From the NCBI GenBank assembly GCA_024224155.1, contig JAAENP010000124.1:1-32487 (forward strand): a DNA stretch of 32,487 nucleotides, in the 5' to 3' direction. How positions within the stretch are numbered: position 1 is the stretch's first letter; each line of letters starts with the position of its first letter. The notes below the pieces were generated by a model. That model ran no database searches, was not told where the DNA came from, and saw only the letters and a list, made by a program, of their open reading frames with translations. This document shows positions 15,464 through 23,316 of this stretch, piece after piece. The translations under genes were made by a program, and so were the position numbers. Source of the DNA: a bacterium (GTDB lineage: Bacteria; Acidobacteriota; Thermoanaerobaculia; Multivoradales; JAHEKO01).

Positions 15464-17809
15464 CTAGGCCGCGCCCTCTTGCTCTCGCCCGTTCCCGGTA
15501 CCGAGCCGGCGCTTCAGGTCCTCGATCGCCATGAGGACCTCCTCAGGCGTCGCGGGGCCGCTGATGTGCGGGCTCAAACGGTGCCGGCCGACGCTGGCCA
15601 CGGCGTCTTTGATGGCATGAAAAACCGATATCGCGAGCATCAGCGGGGGCTCACCAACGGCCTTCGAGCGATGGATGGTCGGCTCGTTGTTGCGCCCGCC
15701 TTTCAGCAAGTGAACGTTGAAGACCTCGGGCATATCGCTGGCGACCGGAATCTTGTAGGTCGAAGGGGCGTGTGTCTGGAGCTCGCCCCTGGCGTCCCAC
15801 CAGAGCTCTTCGGTCGTAAGCCAGCCCATGCCCTGGATGAAGCCGCCTTCGATCTGGCCCATATCGATCGCCGGGTTCAACGACTCCCCGACATCGTGCA
15901 GTATGTCGACTCGGGTGACCTTGTACTCACCGGTCAGGACGTCGATCACGACCTCGGAGACGGCGGCTCCATAGGCAAAGTAGTAGAAGGGTCGCCCGGT
16001 GAGCGTCGAACGATCGTAGTGGATCTTGGGAGTCCGGTAAAAGCCGGTCGCCGAGAGCGACACCCGGCCCAGCCAGGCGAGATTCGTGAGCTCGGCGAAG
16101 GGCACACGCTCGTCGCCGACGTTCACGTGATCGTCCCGGAACTCGACTTGCTCCGGTGCCACGTCGTAGTGCTCGGCGGCGAACCGGGTCAGTCGCTCTT
16201 TCAGCGTCCGGGCCGCGGCCTGGGCCGCCATCCCGTTCAAATCCGATCCCGACGACGCCGCGGTGGCCGAGGCGTTGGGCACCCTGGCGGTGTCCGAGGG
16301 GGTGCAGCGAATTCTGCCGATATCGATCTGGAGCTCCTCGGCCACGACCTGAGCGACCTTGGTGAAGAGCCCCTGGCCCATCTCGGTGCCGCCGTGGTTC
16401 AGCTGCACGGTGCCGTCCGAGTAGATCAGGATGAGGGCCCCGGCCTGGTTGTAGTGCGTGGCCGTGAACGAGATGCCGAACTTGACCGGCGTCAGGGCGA
16501 TTCCCTTCTTGAGCAGCTCGCTCGAGGCGTTGAACTCGTCGATGTCTCGCCGACGCTGCCGGTAGTCCGAGGTCTCCTCGAGCTCGGGGACCAGGTCCAT
16601 GAGGCGGTTGTCTTCGACCTTCATGCGGTAGGGAGTGACGTCGCGCTCACCGATGCCGTAGAAGTTCTTGGTGCGCACATCGAGAGGATCGACCCTCAAG
16701 GACCGGGCGATCTCGTCCATGACCCACTCGATCGCCATCATGCCCTGCGGGCCGCCGAAGCCGCGAAACGCGGTGTTGGAGACCGTGTTGGTCTTGCAGC
16801 GATGAGAGGTAATGGCCACATTTTCGAGGAAGTAGGCGTTGTCGGCGTGAAACATCGTCCGATCGTTGACCGGGCCGGAGAGGTCCGTGGACATTCCGCA
16901 GCGGGAGGCGAACATGAACTCGATGCCCTTGATCTGGCCTTCTGCGTCGAAACCGACGTCGTAGTCGACCCGGTAGCCATGGCGCTTGCCGGTCATCACC
17001 ATGTCGGTGTCGCGATCGGGCCGGACCTTCACGGCCCGGCCGGTTCGGCTGGCCAGCAAGGCGGCGATACTCGCGAAGAGCGCCGGCTGGGTCTCCTTGC
17101 CGCCGAATCCGCCGCCCATCCTCCGGCATTCCACAACGACGTCCTTGGCGGTCTTGCCCAGGGCGTGGGCGACTACGTGCTGGACCTCGGACGGGTGCTG
17201 GGACGAGCTGTAGACCAGCAGGTCACCGTCTTCCTTTGGCAGAGCGAAGGCGATGTGCCCCTCCAGGTAGAACTGGTCCTGGCCGCCGAACCGGAACGTT
17301 CCCCGGAGGCGATGGGCGGCGGCGGCGATCGCCTTCTTGGCGTCGCCTCGCGCCATGGTCATGGTCGGAAGGACGTAGGACCTCTTCTCGAGCGCGGTAT
17401 CGATGTCCAGAATCGGCTCCAGGTCTTGGTATTCGATCTCCGCCAGGCGGGCCGCGCGGCGGGCGTGCTCGACGCCGGTGGCGGCGACCGCGAACACCGA
17501 TTGCCCGATGTACTGTACGAGCCCGTCCGCGAAAATAGGATCGTCCTTGACCGGACCTCCGATGTCGTTGGCTCCGGGAATGTCGCCGGCGGTGATCACG
17601 TCGACCACGCCGGGCGCGTTCCAGACCGGATCCAGGTCGATCGACTTGATTCGGGCGTGGGCCCGCTCACTCATGCCGATTGCCGCGTGCAGAGTTCCTA
17701 TGGGCTCCGGAATGTCGTCGGTGTAGCGAGCCTCGCCGCTGACATGGAGATGGGCGCTCTCATGGGGTAGGGGAGTACCGACGCGTCCCCTGATCGTGGT
17801 CTCAGACAT
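15464..17809 (-). CDS. xdhB: Xanthine dehydrogenase, molybdopterin-binding subunit
   Basis: The 781-aa protein starts at the ATG at 17809, two bases after xdhA, with GGGAGG upstream. An earlier in-frame codon at 17860 would overlap xdhA and lacks family sequence. It has the full Mo-hydroxylase layout. MGGGFGGKE at 231-239 ends in the substrate-binding Glu (bovine E802). AFRGFGGPQG near 347-356 contains the purine-binding Arg (bovine R880). EMGQGLFTK lies in the middle. Near residue 720 comes VGEPPL with the catalytic Glu (bovine E1261). With these residues the enzyme should oxidise hypoxanthine and xanthine at the Mo-cofactor, passing electrons to XdhA. The length matches Rhodobacter-type XdhB. 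No xdhC (cofactor insertion) is in the window. Confidence 0.95.
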   Translation of the reverse strand: MSETTIRGRVGTPLPHESAHLHVSGEARYTDDIPEPIGTLHAAIGMSERAHARIKSIDLDPVWNAPGVVDVITAGDIPGANDIGGPVKDDPIFADGLVQYIGQSVFAVAATGVEHARRAARLAEIEYQDLEPILDIDTALEKRSYVLPTMTMARGDAKKAIAAAAHRLRGTFRFGGQDQFYLEGHIAFALPKEDGDLLVYSSSQHPSEVQHVVAHALGKTAKDVVVECRRMGGGFGGKETQPALFASIAALLASRTGRAVKVRPDRDTDMVMTGKRHGYRVDYDVGFDAEGQIKGIEFMFASRCGMSTDLSGPVNDRTMFHADNAYFLENVAITSHRCKTNTVSNTAFRGFGGPQGMMAIEWVMDEIARSLRVDPLDVRTKNFYGIGERDVTPYRMKVEDNRLMDLVPELEETSDYRQRRRDIDEFNASSELLKKGIALTPVKFGISFTATHYNQAGALILIYSDGTVQLNHGGTEMGQGLFTKVAQVVAEELQIDIGRIRCTPSDTARVPNASATAASSGSDLNGMAAQAAARTLKERLTRFAAEHYDVAPEQVEFRDDHVNVGDERVPFAELTNLAWLGRVSLSATGFYRTPKIHYDRSTLTGRPFYYFAYGAAVSEVVIDVLTGEYKVTRVDILHDVGESLNPAIDMGQIEGGFIQGMGWLTTEELWWDARGELQTHAPSTYKIPVASDMPEVFNVHLLKGGRNNEPTIHRSKAVGEPPLMLAISVFHAIKDAVASVGRHRLSPHISGPATPEEVLMAIEDLKRRLGTGNGREQEGAA

Positions 17810-17811
17810 CT

Positions 17812-19368
17812 CTACCTCCCGTGCTCGCCGTGCTCGAGTACGCGTGTGTCTCCCTGCCATCCCGACGTCTCCAGGAACAGCTTCTTGAGCAGGTTGCGAG
17901 TGACCATTTGCCGGTACTCGAGACTCGCCCTCATGTCGCTGATCGGGGTGTAGTCGCGATCCAATGCGGCCATGCCTTCCGCGAGCGTTGATTCATTCCA
18001 CCGTCTGCCCTCCAGCGCCCGCTCACACTCGGTGGCGCGCTTGGGTATCGCCGCCATGCCGCCGTAGCAGATCCTGACGTCTCGAACCCGGTCGTCGTTC
18101 AACCGGAAGGCGTAGGCCCCGCAGACGGCCGAGATGTCCTGATCGAATCGTTTGCTGATCTTGTACATTCTGAGCTGGCGATCGGCGGGCTCGAGCGGGA
18201 TTCGCACTCGCTCCACGAATTCGCCCGGGTCCAGGGCCGTCTGCTGGTAGGCGATGTAGAACTCGTCCAGGGGCAGCTCGCGGGTCTGCTTTCCGCGCCG
18301 CAGCACGAGCGACGCGCCGAGTGCGATCAACCCGGGCATCGAGTCGCCGATCGGAGAACCGTTGGCGACATTGCCGCCGATCGTCGCCGCGTTCCGGATC
18401 GGTGGCGAGGCGAAGCGCCGGTACATCTCGCCCATGTCCGGGAAGTGCTCTCCGATCAAGCCCTGGGCGTCGCTGACCGAGACCGCCGCGCCGACCTCGA
18501 TGTGGGCCCCGGTCGCCTCGAGAGCCTTGAGCTCTTCGACGTCTCCCAGGTAGATCACGGTATCGAGATCCATTTGATTCTTGGTGACCCAAAGCCCGAT
18601 GTCTGTCCCGCCGGCCAGGATGTAGGCGTCCGGATGGCGTTCGACCAGTTCGGCGAAGTCCTCGATCTTGGTCGGGGCGTAGTACCTGCGGGTTTCGCCG
18701 GCGAGGTTGGGGCCGGTTACGGCGAGTGTGCCGCTGCGCTGAATGGAGCGCAGCCGCTCGACCATCTCGAGCTCGCCCGGGGAAGGCCGATCTCCATGTT
18801 CGGCCGAATAGGGGCTGTGGGTCCAGGTGCCGTTGCCGTTGCCGGACAACGCATACATCTTCTCAGCGGCCTCTAGGATCGGGCGGTAACCGGTGCAACG
18901 GCACAGGTTGCCCGCAAGCATGTCGTTGATGCGCGCTCTGCTGGGCTTGGGCTCCGACTTGTACAGTGCGAACATCGACATCACGAACCCCGGTGTGCAG
19001 AAACCGCACTGCGAGCCGTGGCACTCGATCATGGCCCTTTGCGCCGGATGCAAGGTGCCGTCCGGGGCACGCAAGCTCTCGACGGTGAACAGCGCCTTGC
19101 CGTCGAGGGTTGGCACGAACTGGATGCAGGAGTTGAGTGCGCGGAATCGAACCCGGTCTCCGTCGAGTGTTCCGAGAACCACGGTACAGGCACCGCAGTC
19201 GCCCTCCGCGCATCCCTCCTTGGTGCCGGTGCGGCGGAGGGTCTCGCGCAGGTAGTTGAGCACCGTGGTGTTGGGATCGATATCTCGAATCGTCCTGACC
19301 TCGCCGTCGAGGATGAAGCGGATCGGATCGCCAGGGACCTCGGAGCCGGGCTGTTTGGTCGCCGTCAT
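17812..19368 (-). CDS. xdhA: Xanthine dehydrogenase, iron-sulfur/FAD subunit
   Basis: The 518-aa protein pairs with XdhB. The plant-type [2Fe-2S] domain has C53, C58 and C61 (GCAEGDCGAC), with C81 as fourth ligand. The second cluster domain has C121 and C124 (QCGFCTPG) and C156 and C158 (NLCRCTGYRPI). After a linker of about 80 residues the FAD domain shows ILAGGTDIGLW at 250-260 and NAATIGGNVANGSPIGDS at 326-343. Electrons flow from the Mo site through both clusters to FAD and on to NAD+ or another acceptor. I chose the ATG at 19368 because GGAGAG lies 8 nt upstream; the ATG at 19428 lacks a ribosome site and adds 20 residues without family similarity. It is the first gene of the operon. Confidence 0.95.
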   Translation of the reverse strand: MTATKQPGSEVPGDPIRFILDGEVRTIRDIDPNTTVLNYLRETLRRTGTKEGCAEGDCGACTVVLGTLDGDRVRFRALNSCIQFVPTLDGKALFTVESLRAPDGTLHPAQRAMIECHGSQCGFCTPGFVMSMFALYKSEPKPSRARINDMLAGNLCRCTGYRPILEAAEKMYALSGNGNGTWTHSPYSAEHGDRPSPGELEMVERLRSIQRSGTLAVTGPNLAGETRRYYAPTKIEDFAELVERHPDAYILAGGTDIGLWVTKNQMDLDTVIYLGDVEELKALEATGAHIEVGAAVSVSDAQGLIGEHFPDMGEMYRRFASPPIRNAATIGGNVANGSPIGDSMPGLIALGASLVLRRGKQTRELPLDEFYIAYQQTALDPGEFVERVRIPLEPADRQLRMYKISKRFDQDISAVCGAYAFRLNDDRVRDVRICYGGMAAIPKRATECERALEGRRWNESTLAEGMAALDRDYTPISDMRASLEYRQMVTRNLLKKLFLETSGWQGDTRVLEHGEHGR

Positions 19369-19547
19369 GGTCGTGCTCTCCGGGGAAGAATCTGTCCTAA
19401 GTAAAGTGCTCCCGGCTGATAGCCCCATCGGTCCGCCGAGTTCGAAGACCCGGTCGAAACCGGAGATTCAACCATGCTGCTGTGCGGCCGCCAAGGAACC
19501 CGCTGGAGTGTCTCTGAATCAGTATAGCTCAGCGGATCGCGACCGCC

Positions 19548-19702
19548 GCTCGAGGGTAGTGGTACGTTTTGAGCATCTTGGCCCATGCTAGGATCTCATC
19601 CATGCCTAGTAAGGGCGACGTGGCCTGGTGGGTGATTCTTGGCGTGATGGCCGTGCTGCTCATCATCTTGCTAGCCTGACTCGTACCACTACCCGCTCGA
19701 GC
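19548..19702. repeat. Inverted repeat with arms 19548-19566 and 19682-19702
   Basis: GGGTAGTGGTACG (19554-19566) and CGTACCACTACCC (19682-19694) are perfect reverse complements over 13 bp. After a 2-nt bulge the match continues with GCTCGA against TCGAGC. The 115-nt interior contains the whole small ORF with its ribosome site; the right arm starts 2 nt after its stop codon. Confidence 0.75.
19602..19679 (+). CDS. Possible 25-residue single-helix membrane peptide
   Basis: The ORF starts ATG at 19602, with AGGA 8 nt upstream, and ends at TGA 19679. It encodes a short charged start (MPSKGD), then VAWW and an uninterrupted hydrophobic stretch of about 17 residues ending in ILLA. That is a textbook single membrane helix. 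It is divergent from xdhA and is enclosed by the inverted repeat. Small membrane peptides of this size often modulate transporters or enzymes, but no homolog is known to me. A chance ORF is possible, although the combined ribosome site, start and helix argue for a real gene. Confidence 0.45.
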   Translation: MPSKGDVAWWVILGVMAVLLIILLA

Positions 19703-19744
19703 GCAAGCGGAGGTCGACCGCCGCCATACAGTGAGACTCCGCGC

Positions 19745-22087
19745 CTACGGCGTCAGCGGCCAGACCAGCGGCAGCATCAGAAGCGTTACCACCAGGCAGA
19801 CCAGGGTCAGAGGTAGGCCGACCTTGATGTAGTCGATGAAGCGATAGCCGCCCGGTCCCATGATCAGGACGTTAGCGGGATGCGCCACCGGGCTCATGAA
19901 GCTGGCGGAGGCCGACAGCGACACGGTCATCATGAGGGCGTACGGAGACATTCCCAGGTCGGCGGCGGTGTTGACGGCGAGCGGTGCGACCAGGATGGCC
20001 ACCGCGGCCGTGGGCATGACCTGGGCGGCAAAGGCGGTGAGCAGGTAGAGGCCGGCGACAACGGCCAACGGTCCCAGACCGCCGACCCAGTCCACCACGA
20101 GCCGGGTGACCAGCTCGGCGGCTCCGGTCTGCTGAATCGCCAGGCCCAGAGGCAGCATTCCCGCGATCAGGAAAACAGCCCGCCATTCGATCGAGCGATA
20201 GGCTTCGTCCATGGTCAGGCAGCCGCTCAAGACCATGAGGACGGCGCCCGTGACCGCGGCGATATAGATCGGCATCCACCCCAGGATCACCGAGCCGACG
20301 ACGGCGGCCATCAGCAGGGCCGAGAGCGGTGCCTTTTCGATCAGCGGCGGTTCCTGGGCCTCTTCCGTGAGCACCAGAAAGTCGCGGTCGGTGCCGAGCA
20401 GCTTGAGCTTCTCTCGCGGGCCGTGCAGCAGCAGGGCGTCGCCGAACTGGAGTGGAAAGTAGCGCAGATTGCGATAGGGCTTGCCCTCGCGCATCACGGC
20501 CATGACGTTAAAACCGTACTTCTCGCGGAAATGCAGCTGCGGCAGGGTCTTGCCCGCCGCGGCCGAGCGCGGCGCCAGGACGGCCTCGGCCAGGCCGACC
20601 CGCTCCGACTGGAGCTCGCTGAGCTCCGGAGCGATTTCGGTGTCGACCGGCAGCTCGTGCAGGCCTTCCAGGGTCTTGAGCTCCTCTCGCCGGCCCTTGA
20701 CCAGCAGCGTGTCGCCGGCGAGCAACTGCTCGTCGGCCGGAGGGATGAGCTGTTTCTGGCCGTCGCGGATGATGGCCATAACGCCCAGGCTGAAGACGTC
20801 CCCGAGCCGGCTCTCCGCCAGGGTCTTGCCGGCGACGGGAGATTGAGCCGGCACGCTCACCGACATCAGCCGATCTTCGAGACGGTACTTCGCGACGTCT
20901 GCGACATCCGAGACCAGGAACTGAGAATCGTCGCGCAGCTTGTCGAGATTCTCTCGCTTGCCGTGGACCAGCAGCACGTCGCCCGGCGCCAGTCGGGTCT
21001 CGGCCAGGTGGGTACGAAGAGGTCCCCGCTCTCGCCAGGCCGCCAGCACCAGGACCTGGAAACGGCTGCGAAAGTCGGTCTCGCGCAGGCTGTGACCGAG
21101 CAGGTGGGACCGACGCGTGAGCACGACCTCGGCAAATCCCACATCATCGGACACGAGCTCGCCGGGCGTTACGGTCACCGGCTCCAAGGTGAGGTACTCG
21201 GAGACTCCGACCTCGCCGAGAACATCCCGGGGGCCCTGGACCACGATCCGGTCGCCGGGCTCGAAGCGCACGGCCGGGTCGGGAGCGAGGTCGAGGCGCC
21301 CCTTGCGCAGAATTCCCATGACGTTGAGGCCGAGAGCGGAGCCGACGCGGCTCTCCGCCAGGCTCTGTCCCGCCAGGTGCGAGTCCTTTGGCACGTCGAG
21401 CACGAAGATCCGACCCTGCAGACTGTAGACCTCATCGAGGTCCTCCTCGTCGCCGGTCATCTCCCGCGCCGGATTACGCGACGGCAAAATGCGACGGCCG
21501 ATCAGAGCCATATAGGCAATCCCGGCCACCACCACCAGGGCTCCGACGGGAGTGAAGTCGAACATGCTGAAGGGCTCGAGGCCGTGCTCGCCGAGTGCCG
21601 CGCTGACCAGAATGTTCGGGGGCGTGCCGATCAGGGTCATCAGGCCGCCGAGCAGCGAGCTGAAGGCGAGCGGGATGAGCAGCTTCGAAGGCGGACGGTG
21701 TGTCTGTCGCGAGATGTCCATGACCACCGGCAGCAAGAGCGCCGCCACGCCGACGTTGTTCATGAACGCCGAGAGGGTAGCCGAGGTCAGCATGATGACC
21801 ATGATCAGGCGTGCTTCGCTGTTGCCCGCGAGGCGGAGCACCTGGCGACCGAGAATCCCGGCGACACCGGTCCGCGACAGCCCTCCGCTCAGAATGAACA
21901 CGGCCCAGACGGTGATCACCGCCGGATTGCTGAAGCCGGAGACCGCCTCCTTGGGCGAGATGAGCCCGGTCAGGGCGAGGGCGATGAGAACCAGGAGAGC
22001 CACCAGATCGACGCGTATCAGCTCGCTGACGAACAGGATGATCGCGGCGGCGAGAATCCCGAAGACGATGGCAATCTCGAGGGTCAG
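19745..22087 (-). CDS. SLC13/DASS-type transporter with four TrkA-C domains
   Basis: The protein has about 780 residues. N-terminal helices carry FMNNVGVAALLLPVV and GTPPNILV, and C-terminal helices carry SFMSPVAHPANVLIMGPGGY; these are the two pseudo-symmetric SLC13-type transport motifs. Between them lie four TrkA-C (RCK_C) domains at about 225-293, 317-383, 405-473 and 497-563, each with a GDxLLV.G.RE.L-like core. The usual number is two. The family moves sulfate, dicarboxylates or other anions; the substrate here is unknown. The start is unclear. A GTG at 22174 would overlap the amidohydrolase by 91 nt. A CTG at 22087 gives the family-like start (M)TLEIAIVFG and a CTGA overlap with the upstream stop, so I prefer it. 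It is the third gene of its operon. Confidence 0.85.
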   Translation of the reverse strand: MTLEIAIVFGILAAAIILFVSELIRVDLVALLVLIALALTGLISPKEAVSGFSNPAVITVWAVFILSGGLSRTGVAGILGRQVLRLAGNSEARLIMVIMLTSATLSAFMNNVGVAALLLPVVMDISRQTHRPPSKLLIPLAFSSLLGGLMTLIGTPPNILVSAALGEHGLEPFSMFDFTPVGALVVVAGIAYMALIGRRILPSRNPAREMTGDEEDLDEVYSLQGRIFVLDVPKDSHLAGQSLAESRVGSALGLNVMGILRKGRLDLAPDPAVRFEPGDRIVVQGPRDVLGEVGVSEYLTLEPVTVTPGELVSDDVGFAEVVLTRRSHLLGHSLRETDFRSRFQVLVLAAWRERGPLRTHLAETRLAPGDVLLVHGKRENLDKLRDDSQFLVSDVADVAKYRLEDRLMSVSVPAQSPVAGKTLAESRLGDVFSLGVMAIIRDGQKQLIPPADEQLLAGDTLLVKGRREELKTLEGLHELPVDTEIAPELSELQSERVGLAEAVLAPRSAAAGKTLPQLHFREKYGFNVMAVMREGKPYRNLRYFPLQFGDALLLHGPREKLKLLGTDRDFLVLTEEAQEPPLIEKAPLSALLMAAVVGSVILGWMPIYIAAVTGAVLMVLSGCLTMDEAYRSIEWRAVFLIAGMLPLGLAIQQTGAAELVTRLVVDWVGGLGPLAVVAGLYLLTAFAAQVMPTAAVAILVAPLAVNTAADLGMSPYALMMTVSLSASASFMSPVAHPANVLIMGPGGYRFIDYIKVGLPLTLVCLVVTLLMLPLVWPLTP

Positions 22088-23316
22088 TGTGTTCTGCTTC
22101 CCTGGCCTGGAAGGGCGGCTGGGTCGATCAGCCGGCCATGGCTGATCACGTACCTTGGTTGTTCGTGGTGCCACAGGGCTTCGTAGACAGAGCCCGCGTT
22201 CAACACCACGCAGTGGGCCGGCGCACCGGTCTCGAGCACGAAGCTCTCGACGTTCATCGCTCGCGCCGCGTCGACGGTGATCATGTCGTAGATCTTCTCC
22301 ATCTGCGGAAAGGTCGTCATCCAGAGCATGTGAACAGCGAGGAATCCCACCTCGAGCATGTTATTGCGACCGAACGGATAGTAGGCGTCGGCGATATCGT
22401 CCTGCCCCAGGGCTACGAGCACATTCTGGGCGATGAGCTCCTTGGCACGCGCGTGAAGTGGCCCGGTATGGGGATCGGTGACCACTCCCATGCCGGCCTT
22501 GTTCAGCAATGCGCTGATCTTCCTGAAGTAGGGCTCGGGGTACATGCTCATGGCCCGCGCATGGTGCGCCAGGCAACGTCCCGTCCAGCCGTCCTGGATA
22601 GCTCTCACCGCCATCTTCTCTAGAGTCCTCAAACCCGGGTCTCCGGCATCGTCGACTAACATCGAAACGTCGGCGTCGTAGGTCCTGGCGATCTCGAACA
22701 TCTCGTCGATGTGTTTCTGCTCGTCCTCGGCGGTGTACTCGATCCATGGGATCCCGCCAACGACGTCGGCGCCCAGATCCATGGCCTCGCGCACCAGATC
22801 CGCGGTCCCCGGCTCGCGCACGACGCCGTCCTGCGGAAACGCCACCACCTGAACGTCCACGACCCCCTTGAACTCCTCCCGGGCCTTCAAAAGGGCCTTG
22901 ACGCCGATCAGCCGGGCCTTCGAGTCGATGTCGGCGAAAGCCCGGATGTGGGTGTTGCCGAATCGGGCGGCCAGCCGTAAGGCCTTGCGAACGTTGCCCA
23001 GGATCCAACGCTGATCGTACTTCTCCTTGACTCGAGCCGCTTGCTCGATGGCGGTCATCGCGGCACCCATTTCACCGCCGTGATAGGACTCGATCGAGCG
23101 CGAGTCGAGCATCCCCAGGGTGTAGACCTTGTCGAGATGAAGATGGGGATTGGCGAACGACTCCGTGACCAGGTTGCCGTCTGCGCGAATCACCTTGCGG
23201 CCGCGAGTGGTGATCTTCCCGGCAATCTTCTTGACCACGCCGTCGGCGATGCCGATGTCTACGGCCGCCTCGCGCCGGCGAAGGCGGGCATTGCGGATGA
23301 TCAGGTCGTAGGTCAA
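22084..23316 (-). CDS. Cytosine-deaminase-like amidohydrolase with altered metal site
   Basis: This protein of about 410 residues belongs to the bacterial cytosine deaminase (CodA-like) amidohydrolases. From a TTG at 23316 it begins (M)TYDLIIRNARL, which fits the family; an ATG at 23409 would overlap the permease gene by 53 nt and lacks a ribosome site. The ligands H58 and H60 (NPHLHLDK), the later His at about 252 (AHHARAMSM) and D306 (GQDDIADAYYPFG) are present. The CodA motif H-C-D-E reads L220-V-D-D223, so the third metal His and the catalytic Glu are both changed. It lies 40 bp after the AzgA-type permease and overlaps the transporter. A role in deaminating or opening an imported base is plausible; the exact substrate is unknown. 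Confidence 0.75.
   Translation of the reverse strand: MTYDLIIRNARLRRREAAVDIGIADGVVKKIAGKITTRGRKVIRADGNLVTESFANPHLHLDKVYTLGMLDSRSIESYHGGEMGAAMTAIEQAARVKEKYDQRWILGNVRKALRLAARFGNTHIRAFADIDSKARLIGVKALLKAREEFKGVVDVQVVAFPQDGVVREPGTADLVREAMDLGADVVGGIPWIEYTAEDEQKHIDEMFEIARTYDADVSMLVDDAGDPGLRTLEKMAVRAIQDGWTGRCLAHHARAMSMYPEPYFRKISALLNKAGMGVVTDPHTGPLHARAKELIAQNVLVALGQDDIADAYYPFGRNNMLEVGFLAVHMLWMTTFPQMEKIYDMITVDAARAMNVESFVLETGAPAHCVVLNAGSVYEALWHHEQPRYVISHGRLIDPAALPGQGSRTH

Follow-up and report, generated by a model that had tools for sequence, protein, structure and literature searches.

Mobile insertion cassettes (MICs) consist of inverted repeats around a passenger ORF and lack a transposase, and the MIC passengers known to us are full genes. 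Bacterial MITEs, among them Chunjie, QMITE, RUP and NEMIS, are described as intergenic sequences of 50 to 500 bp with terminal inverted repeats, direct repeats and no transposase, and the available portion of PMC10969869 states that ORFs of unknown function have often been reported inside them. The same portion describes the Rickettsia palindromic elements, which are about 150 bp long, occur in many copies, each hold an ORF and in nearly half of the cases lie in frame within genes. IS elements are known to target REPs, and ISRm22, a member of the IS4 family that has its own transposase, is associated in Sinorhizobium meliloti with 6-bp direct repeats at the axis of REP palindromy (PMC1525189, in the portion available).

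The inverted repeat examined here lies in a stretch of 32,487 nucleotides, the whole of which is referred to as the window. A sequence-only reading had described it as flanking a small membrane-peptide ORF and had proposed a miniature mobile cassette, a structured mRNA controlling translation of the peptide or paired operators for xdhA.

The inverted repeat and the empty site in a congener

The repeat is situated between genes of the minus strand. On one side is a permease gene (CitMHS/TrkA-C, 19745-22174), and on the other are the molybdenum hydroxylase (xdh-like) genes at 17812-19428 and 15464-17860, which had been named as neighbors and are present on that strand; genes for an amidohydrolase and a xanthine/uracil permease lie farther along. 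By eye, the xdh start kept by relatives is at about 19368 (minus strand). No tRNA genes were found in the window. The features of the locus are as follows.

19521-19526, minus strand: TATACT, by eye a possible -10 box for the xdh genes within a block conserved in genomes G001 and G002
19531-19553, unstranded: left, more diverged part of the REP-like target (fold and consensus comparison)
19548-19553, unstranded: left copy of the probable target-site duplication GCTCGA, 6 bp, identical to 19695-19700 and single in the G001 empty site
19554-19694, unstranded: probable inserted element, MITE-like, 141 bp, with perfect 13-bp terminal inverted repeats, missing at the syntenic G001 site
19554-19566, plus strand: left terminal inverted repeat GGGTAGTGGTACG (arm comparison and recurrence elsewhere in the own genome)
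19590-19593, plus strand: AGGA, 8 nt upstream of the ATG and by eye a possible ribosome site, unchanged in the copy at C312 of the own genome
19602-19679, plus strand: 25-codon hydrophobic ORF MPSKGDVAWWVILGVMAVLLIILLA and stop, ATG at 19602, TGA at 19677-19679
19682-19694, minus strand: right terminal inverted repeat CGTACCACTACCC, 13/13 complementary to the left arm
19695-19700, unstranded: right copy of the probable target-site duplication GCTCGA, 6 bp, identical to 19548-19553 and single in the G001 empty site
19695-19721, unstranded: right half of the interrupted REP-like palindrome GCTCGAGCGCAAGCGGAGGTCGACCGC, which contains the right GCTCGA and was aligned with 15 other copies

The perfect 13-bp inverted repeat had been placed at near-exact coordinates, and its arms (19554-19566 and 19682-19694) paired at 13 of 13 positions. 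A single ORF of 25 codons lies between them, the proposed ribosome site of its own is a possible one, recognized by eye, and the right arm begins 2 nt past the stop codon (which ends at 19679), as the sequence-only reading had it. Six further pairs after a bulge had been counted as an extension of the arms. The pairing itself was confirmed as possible between CGCTCGA (19547-19553) and TCGAGCG (19697-19703) across a 2-nt bulge (19695-19696), but these bases were placed outside the arms because the target is a palindrome, and its division by the element, with two GCTCGA copies, adds complementary bases.

Together with one copy of GCTCGA, the element amounts to 147 bp. The longest ORF inside the 141 bp is 25 codons from ATG, or 36 codons when GTG and TTG starts are included, and there is no transposase. 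Terminal inverted repeats, a target-site duplication, a size between 50 and 500 bp and the lack of a transposase are among the features by which MITEs are recognized, and these four were found. The fold of 19540-19710 had a z value of -5.4, as expected from such an inverted repeat, and the interior of the element folded alone had a z value of -2.4, with 7 of 200 shuffles equally good. In the predicted folds the arms paired with each other and neither paired with itself, and hence the arrangement of a GTAG-tagged REP dimer or REPIN, in which each arm is its own stem-loop, was not observed.

The syntenic intergenic region between xdhA and the permease gene in G001, which belongs to the same genus, has the sequence GCTCGAGCGCAAGC, in which GCTCGA occurs once and the element is missing. 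This region aligns with the left flank of the window as far as GCTCGA and then goes on as the right flank GCGCAAGC; in BLAST searches, the two flanks met on shared G001 bases (L077 854-860), where the left one ends and the right one starts. The 14-mer GCTCGAGCGCAAGC was present in 11 of 135 loci, every one of which covered either the window site or the G001 site. When a query of 1,601 bases across the site was compared with 18 genomes of the family, the interior was matched, besides by itself, only by C312 of the own genome. Both genes are still adjacent in G005 and G012, where the intergenic regions are short and unlike that of the window, and in G002 the homology does not reach the insertion site.

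Neither arms nor an ORF of this kind were rare by chance. Of 30 shuffled versions of the 32-kb window, 8 contained one or more 13-bp inverted repeats within 200 nt, and 32% of 3,000 shuffles of the element contained an ORF of 25 or more codons starting with ATG. Direct repeats of at least 5 bp abutting the arms were scored for inverted repeats with a 10-bp seed and arms up to 300 nt apart, and were present in 1 of 29 such repeats in the window, namely, this element. A control on the own genome (11 readable stretches) detected 1 case in 133 inverted repeats, with a direct repeat of 5 bp. Overall, the arms or the ORF taken singly are unremarkable, and the direct repeat adjoining the arms, combined with the empty site in the congener, is beyond chance.

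Because GCTCGA is duplicated at the arms and is single in the G001 empty site, the inverted repeat is very probably a non-autonomous, MITE-like insertion of 141 bp with a 6-bp target-site duplication in a REP-like palindrome. Exact loss of the unit in G001 would look alike and is less likely than insertion; the flanks are repeat-derived and could in principle yield a direct repeat unaided. The duplication and the empty site thus bear out the mobility of the proposed miniature mobile cassette. The peptide as its purpose fared worse, as there were no clear relatives outside the genome and the second copy showed no sign of purifying selection. It had also been said that the proposal would fall if neither arm nor peptide were conserved in the closest relatives. 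At this locus neither is kept, because the unit is most probably an insertion; elsewhere in G001, at C14, an arm-like palindrome does occur.

The REP-like target and the proposed mechanism

With the element and one GCTCGA removed, the site folds as a hairpin that has CTCGAG at its apex. The target family is dispersed in the own genome. Of 43 matches, 16 right-half copies besides that of the window were laid out and 15 were used for the consensus; L025 was excluded by eye, its left half being unlike the others. The exact GTAG tag was present in 7 of the 15 aligned copies, and in the consensus GTAGCGGTCGACCTCCGCTTGCCCTCGAGCGAAGCGAAGGGTGTCGACCG the hairpin starts right after GTAG (z = -2.6, with 4 of 200 shuffles equally good). 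The family therefore consists of short dispersed stem-loops with GTAG at one end, which defines GTAG-tagged REPs, and fits those described in the available portion of PMC3733652. The window copy is a diverged member in which the tag is lost and the left half fits the consensus poorly.

Further REP-like palindromes were observed by eye past the empty site in the G001 intergenic region (L077:867-1080). Palindromes of the form GGGGACACC...GGTGTCCCC were present near REP copies in L010 and L017 and resembled GGGGWSAS inverted repeats, which are reported beside tyrosine transposases in the portion of PMC3733652 available.

The observed features are the arms, the duplication, the empty site of the congener and a target that is itself a repeat, and from these a mechanism can be proposed. 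A transposase acting in trans would have inserted the 141-bp element between the permease gene and the xdh genes, at the apex of the GTAG-tagged REP-like palindrome, and would thereby have made the 6-bp duplication GCTCGA. Because a duplication of 6 bp was made, the enzyme would be of the DDE type and would act by cutting and insertion. Its source would be an IS that shares the ends of the element, GGGTAGTGGTACGTTTTGAG, of which none was seen in the assembly. The insertion is probably recent because both the arms and the duplication have remained perfect. As for the 25-codon ORF, it most likely belongs to the interior with no established role and may be a mere passenger or a chance frame.

Other copies of the ends and the search for a transposase

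The 20 nt of the left end (19554-19573) recur in the own genome at C572 (20/20), C482 (19/20) and C312 (18/20), and no match was obtained with a reversed control pattern of this 20-mer. The C312 copy has the left end and the interior, with an unclear right arm, and C572 and C482 have the left end only, followed at C482 by a tandem copy of part of itself; one complete copy is thus known in the own genome. The 13-nt arm, with 1 mismatch allowed, had 4 matches in the own genome (G000) versus 14 for the reversed control, which indicated no enrichment. A search of the own genome for other paired ends, with up to 1 mismatch to the 13-mer, found none, and no transposase with matching ends was found among the own-genome matches (up to 3 mismatches to the 20-mer or up to 1 to the 13-mer). 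These absences hold for the readable part of an assembly of 576 contigs, as 9 of 20 sampled contigs (all short) read wholly as N (L116-L118, L123-L125, L127, L128 and L135) and IS copies may be missing. Among nine chosen ORFs near C572, C482 and C312 there were no transposase Pfam families, eight matching other families and one being unmatched.

The surroundings of these copies were also inspected. At C572, a frame that by eye resembles a membrane protein (L034:3742-4176) lies some 100 nt downstream of the isolated left end, with a stop soon after the start and no Pfam match for the listed part. Empty sites for C572 and C312 were sought in the genus, where C572 had no counterpart. The left flank of the C312 copy turned out to be the end of a different dispersed repeat, about 10 nt or less from the start of the copy, and the arm motif followed none of the 6 other copies of this repeat that were examined. 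A dispersed repeat ending CTACTGCACCACCAGTGCACCACG was observed in three genomes of the genus (L036:1252-1496; L088, L090-L094). Some of its copies adjoin tRNA-like sequence by eye, and ARAGORN detected no tRNA gene in 6 loci; this repeat is perhaps the attachment end of integrative elements.

The arm was considered as the end of a widespread IS, and this was rejected. Matches were present in 3 of 72 genomes of the order, and the one in G012, which falls within an open frame, is consistent with chance (an estimated 1 or so expected for all 72). A GTDB scan detected 11 stretches versus about 30 expected by chance (an estimate), one of them being L053, the contig of G001:C14. The arm sequence was found neither in viral contigs (pattern search) nor in plasmids or phages (blastn). 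The 13-mer matches at C29, C53 and C168 of G001 and C200 of G002 were at or below the level of the reversed control (14, 8 and 10 in G000, G001 and G002, respectively) and had no inverted partner within 2 mismatches in loci of 3 kb. At C53 of G001 (L104:1344-1472), the 1-mismatch arm match, itself at chance level, is directly preceded by a 42-codon hydrophobic ORF (36 codons when counted from an inner TTG), accompanied by an AAGGAGG-like ribosome site and, by eye, a terminator-like hairpin.

At C14 of G001, the palindrome GTAGTGGTACGTTGGTCAAAACGTACCACTAC (L086 760-791) is located between 7-nt direct repeats, GTATCTA (747-753 and 794-800), one of which abuts an arm end while the other is 4 nt away. 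This arrangement is suggestive of a second insertion, and the palindrome is possibly a much shorter relation of the element in the window. In G000 the counterpart has the neighboring gene in common and a different intergenic region.

The palindrome at C14 also bears on an explanation that we regard as quite unlikely, in which the arms of the window element form a REP-type inverted pair moved as a single strand by a tyrosine transposase. GTAG is present in the arms, and these are similar to another family of tagged palindromes, of which that at C14 is predicted to form a tight hairpin (z = -4.7), with a similar short hairpin by eye at C482. Acidobacterial tyrosine transposases with flanking inverted repeats have furthermore been described (PMC3733652, in the portion available). 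The arms in the window, however, pair mutually and not individually in the predicted folds. To our knowledge, Y1 (IS200/IS605-like) transposition would not be expected to leave a 6-bp duplication.

The 25-codon ORF, a possible xdh promoter and known systems

The element lies upstream of TATACT, from which it is separated by 27 nt. A scan for consensus sigma-70 promoters found none, and judging by eye the element may now stand in place of what lay upstream of the xdh promoter. A cis-regulatory device, in which a structured mRNA or paired operators act on the peptide or on xdhA, would agree with the strong predicted fold and with a position just upstream of the conserved TATACT (by eye) and is nevertheless highly improbable. 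The unit is absent at the syntenic G001 place, and for this reason the paired xdhA operators proposed earlier are unlikely. Control of translation by a structured mRNA is physically possible and gained no support, the C312 copy having no clear right arm and a different predicted fold, and no Rfam match at gathering scores was found in the window.

The insertion could also have a purpose, if it were a MIC in which a membrane-peptide gene replaces the transposase. This refinement, whose odds overlap those of a MITE-like insertion, is rather doubtful. The peptide is hydrophobic (best 19-residue Kyte-Doolittle mean, 2.86), and its ORF remains open and hydrophobic in both the window and the C312 copy, which speaks for a cassette. 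So does the recurrence at C312 of a block of ribosome site and ORF with 5 changes in 96 nt versus 10 in 33 (gaps counted) just before it; the Fisher P value of 0.0004 is flattering, as the block was picked post hoc. Within the ORF itself, all 5 differences (in 78 nt) were classified, and 4 were nonsynonymous and 1 was synonymous. Random change would give 69% nonsynonymous, 24% synonymous and 7% nonsense or start-loss changes, and the differences between these two sequences are as predicted without selection, which argues against a cassette, as does the frequency of such ORFs in shuffled elements given above.

Relatives of the peptide were likewise scarce. A conserved small protein was sought in the genus (3 genomes), the family (18 genomes) and a drawn sample of the phylum (396 genomes), counts that include the own genome and hence leave 17 others in the family and 395 in the phylum. 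Only the two own copies and three weak phylum matches were obtained. The latter (E values of 0.002 to 0.05, with 47 to 55% identity over 19 to 22 residues, in open frames of 84 to 527 amino acids) were taken as transmembrane likeness, and the candidate was rejected. No family matched above its curated cutoff, the best NCBIfam match having an E value of 0.003 and 17 bits versus a cutoff of 65, and Pfam yielded a weak match to Blr (E value, 0.54) for one of the two peptide copies.

We would give little credence to the element being the smallest known MIC, without a transposase, with a translated 25-amino-acid membrane peptide and its ribosome site as the conserved core and dispersed by a transposase that targets REPs. 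Should the peptide be produced, a mobile element would here have founded a new small membrane protein. Otherwise, the locus is ordinary and cautionary, in that a hairpin and an ORF need not amount to a regulated peptide.

Compared with MICs as we know them, the window element likewise has inverted repeats that enclose an ORF and no transposase, and it differs in holding 25 codons without a sign of selection instead of a full gene. It resembles the Rickettsia palindromic elements, as characterized in the available portion of PMC10969869, in its length of about 150 bp, its palindromic nature and its ORF but, unlike them, is intergenic and single. The likeness to bacterial MITEs (same portion) extends to size, terminal inverted repeats, direct repeats, the lack of a transposase and an intergenic position. 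In contrast to MITEs, there is one complete copy here and no parent IS was found in the readable assembly, and the 13-bp arms are slightly below the 15 to 30 bp quoted in the portion of PMC3733652 consulted. With ISRm22 and other REP-targeting IS elements, compared by their description in PMC1525189 (in part), the element shares 6-bp direct repeats and insertion at the axis of REP palindromy, whereas the transposase that ISRm22 has of its own is lacking. The window element is thus a mini-transposon of an already known type whose insertion is well shown. It offers a clean example of one insertion into a REP-like repeat of an acidobacterial genome, together with the empty site, and so extends the rule of REPs as targets, which that portion of PMC1525189 gives for IS elements in Pseudomonas, Sinorhizobium and Neisseria.
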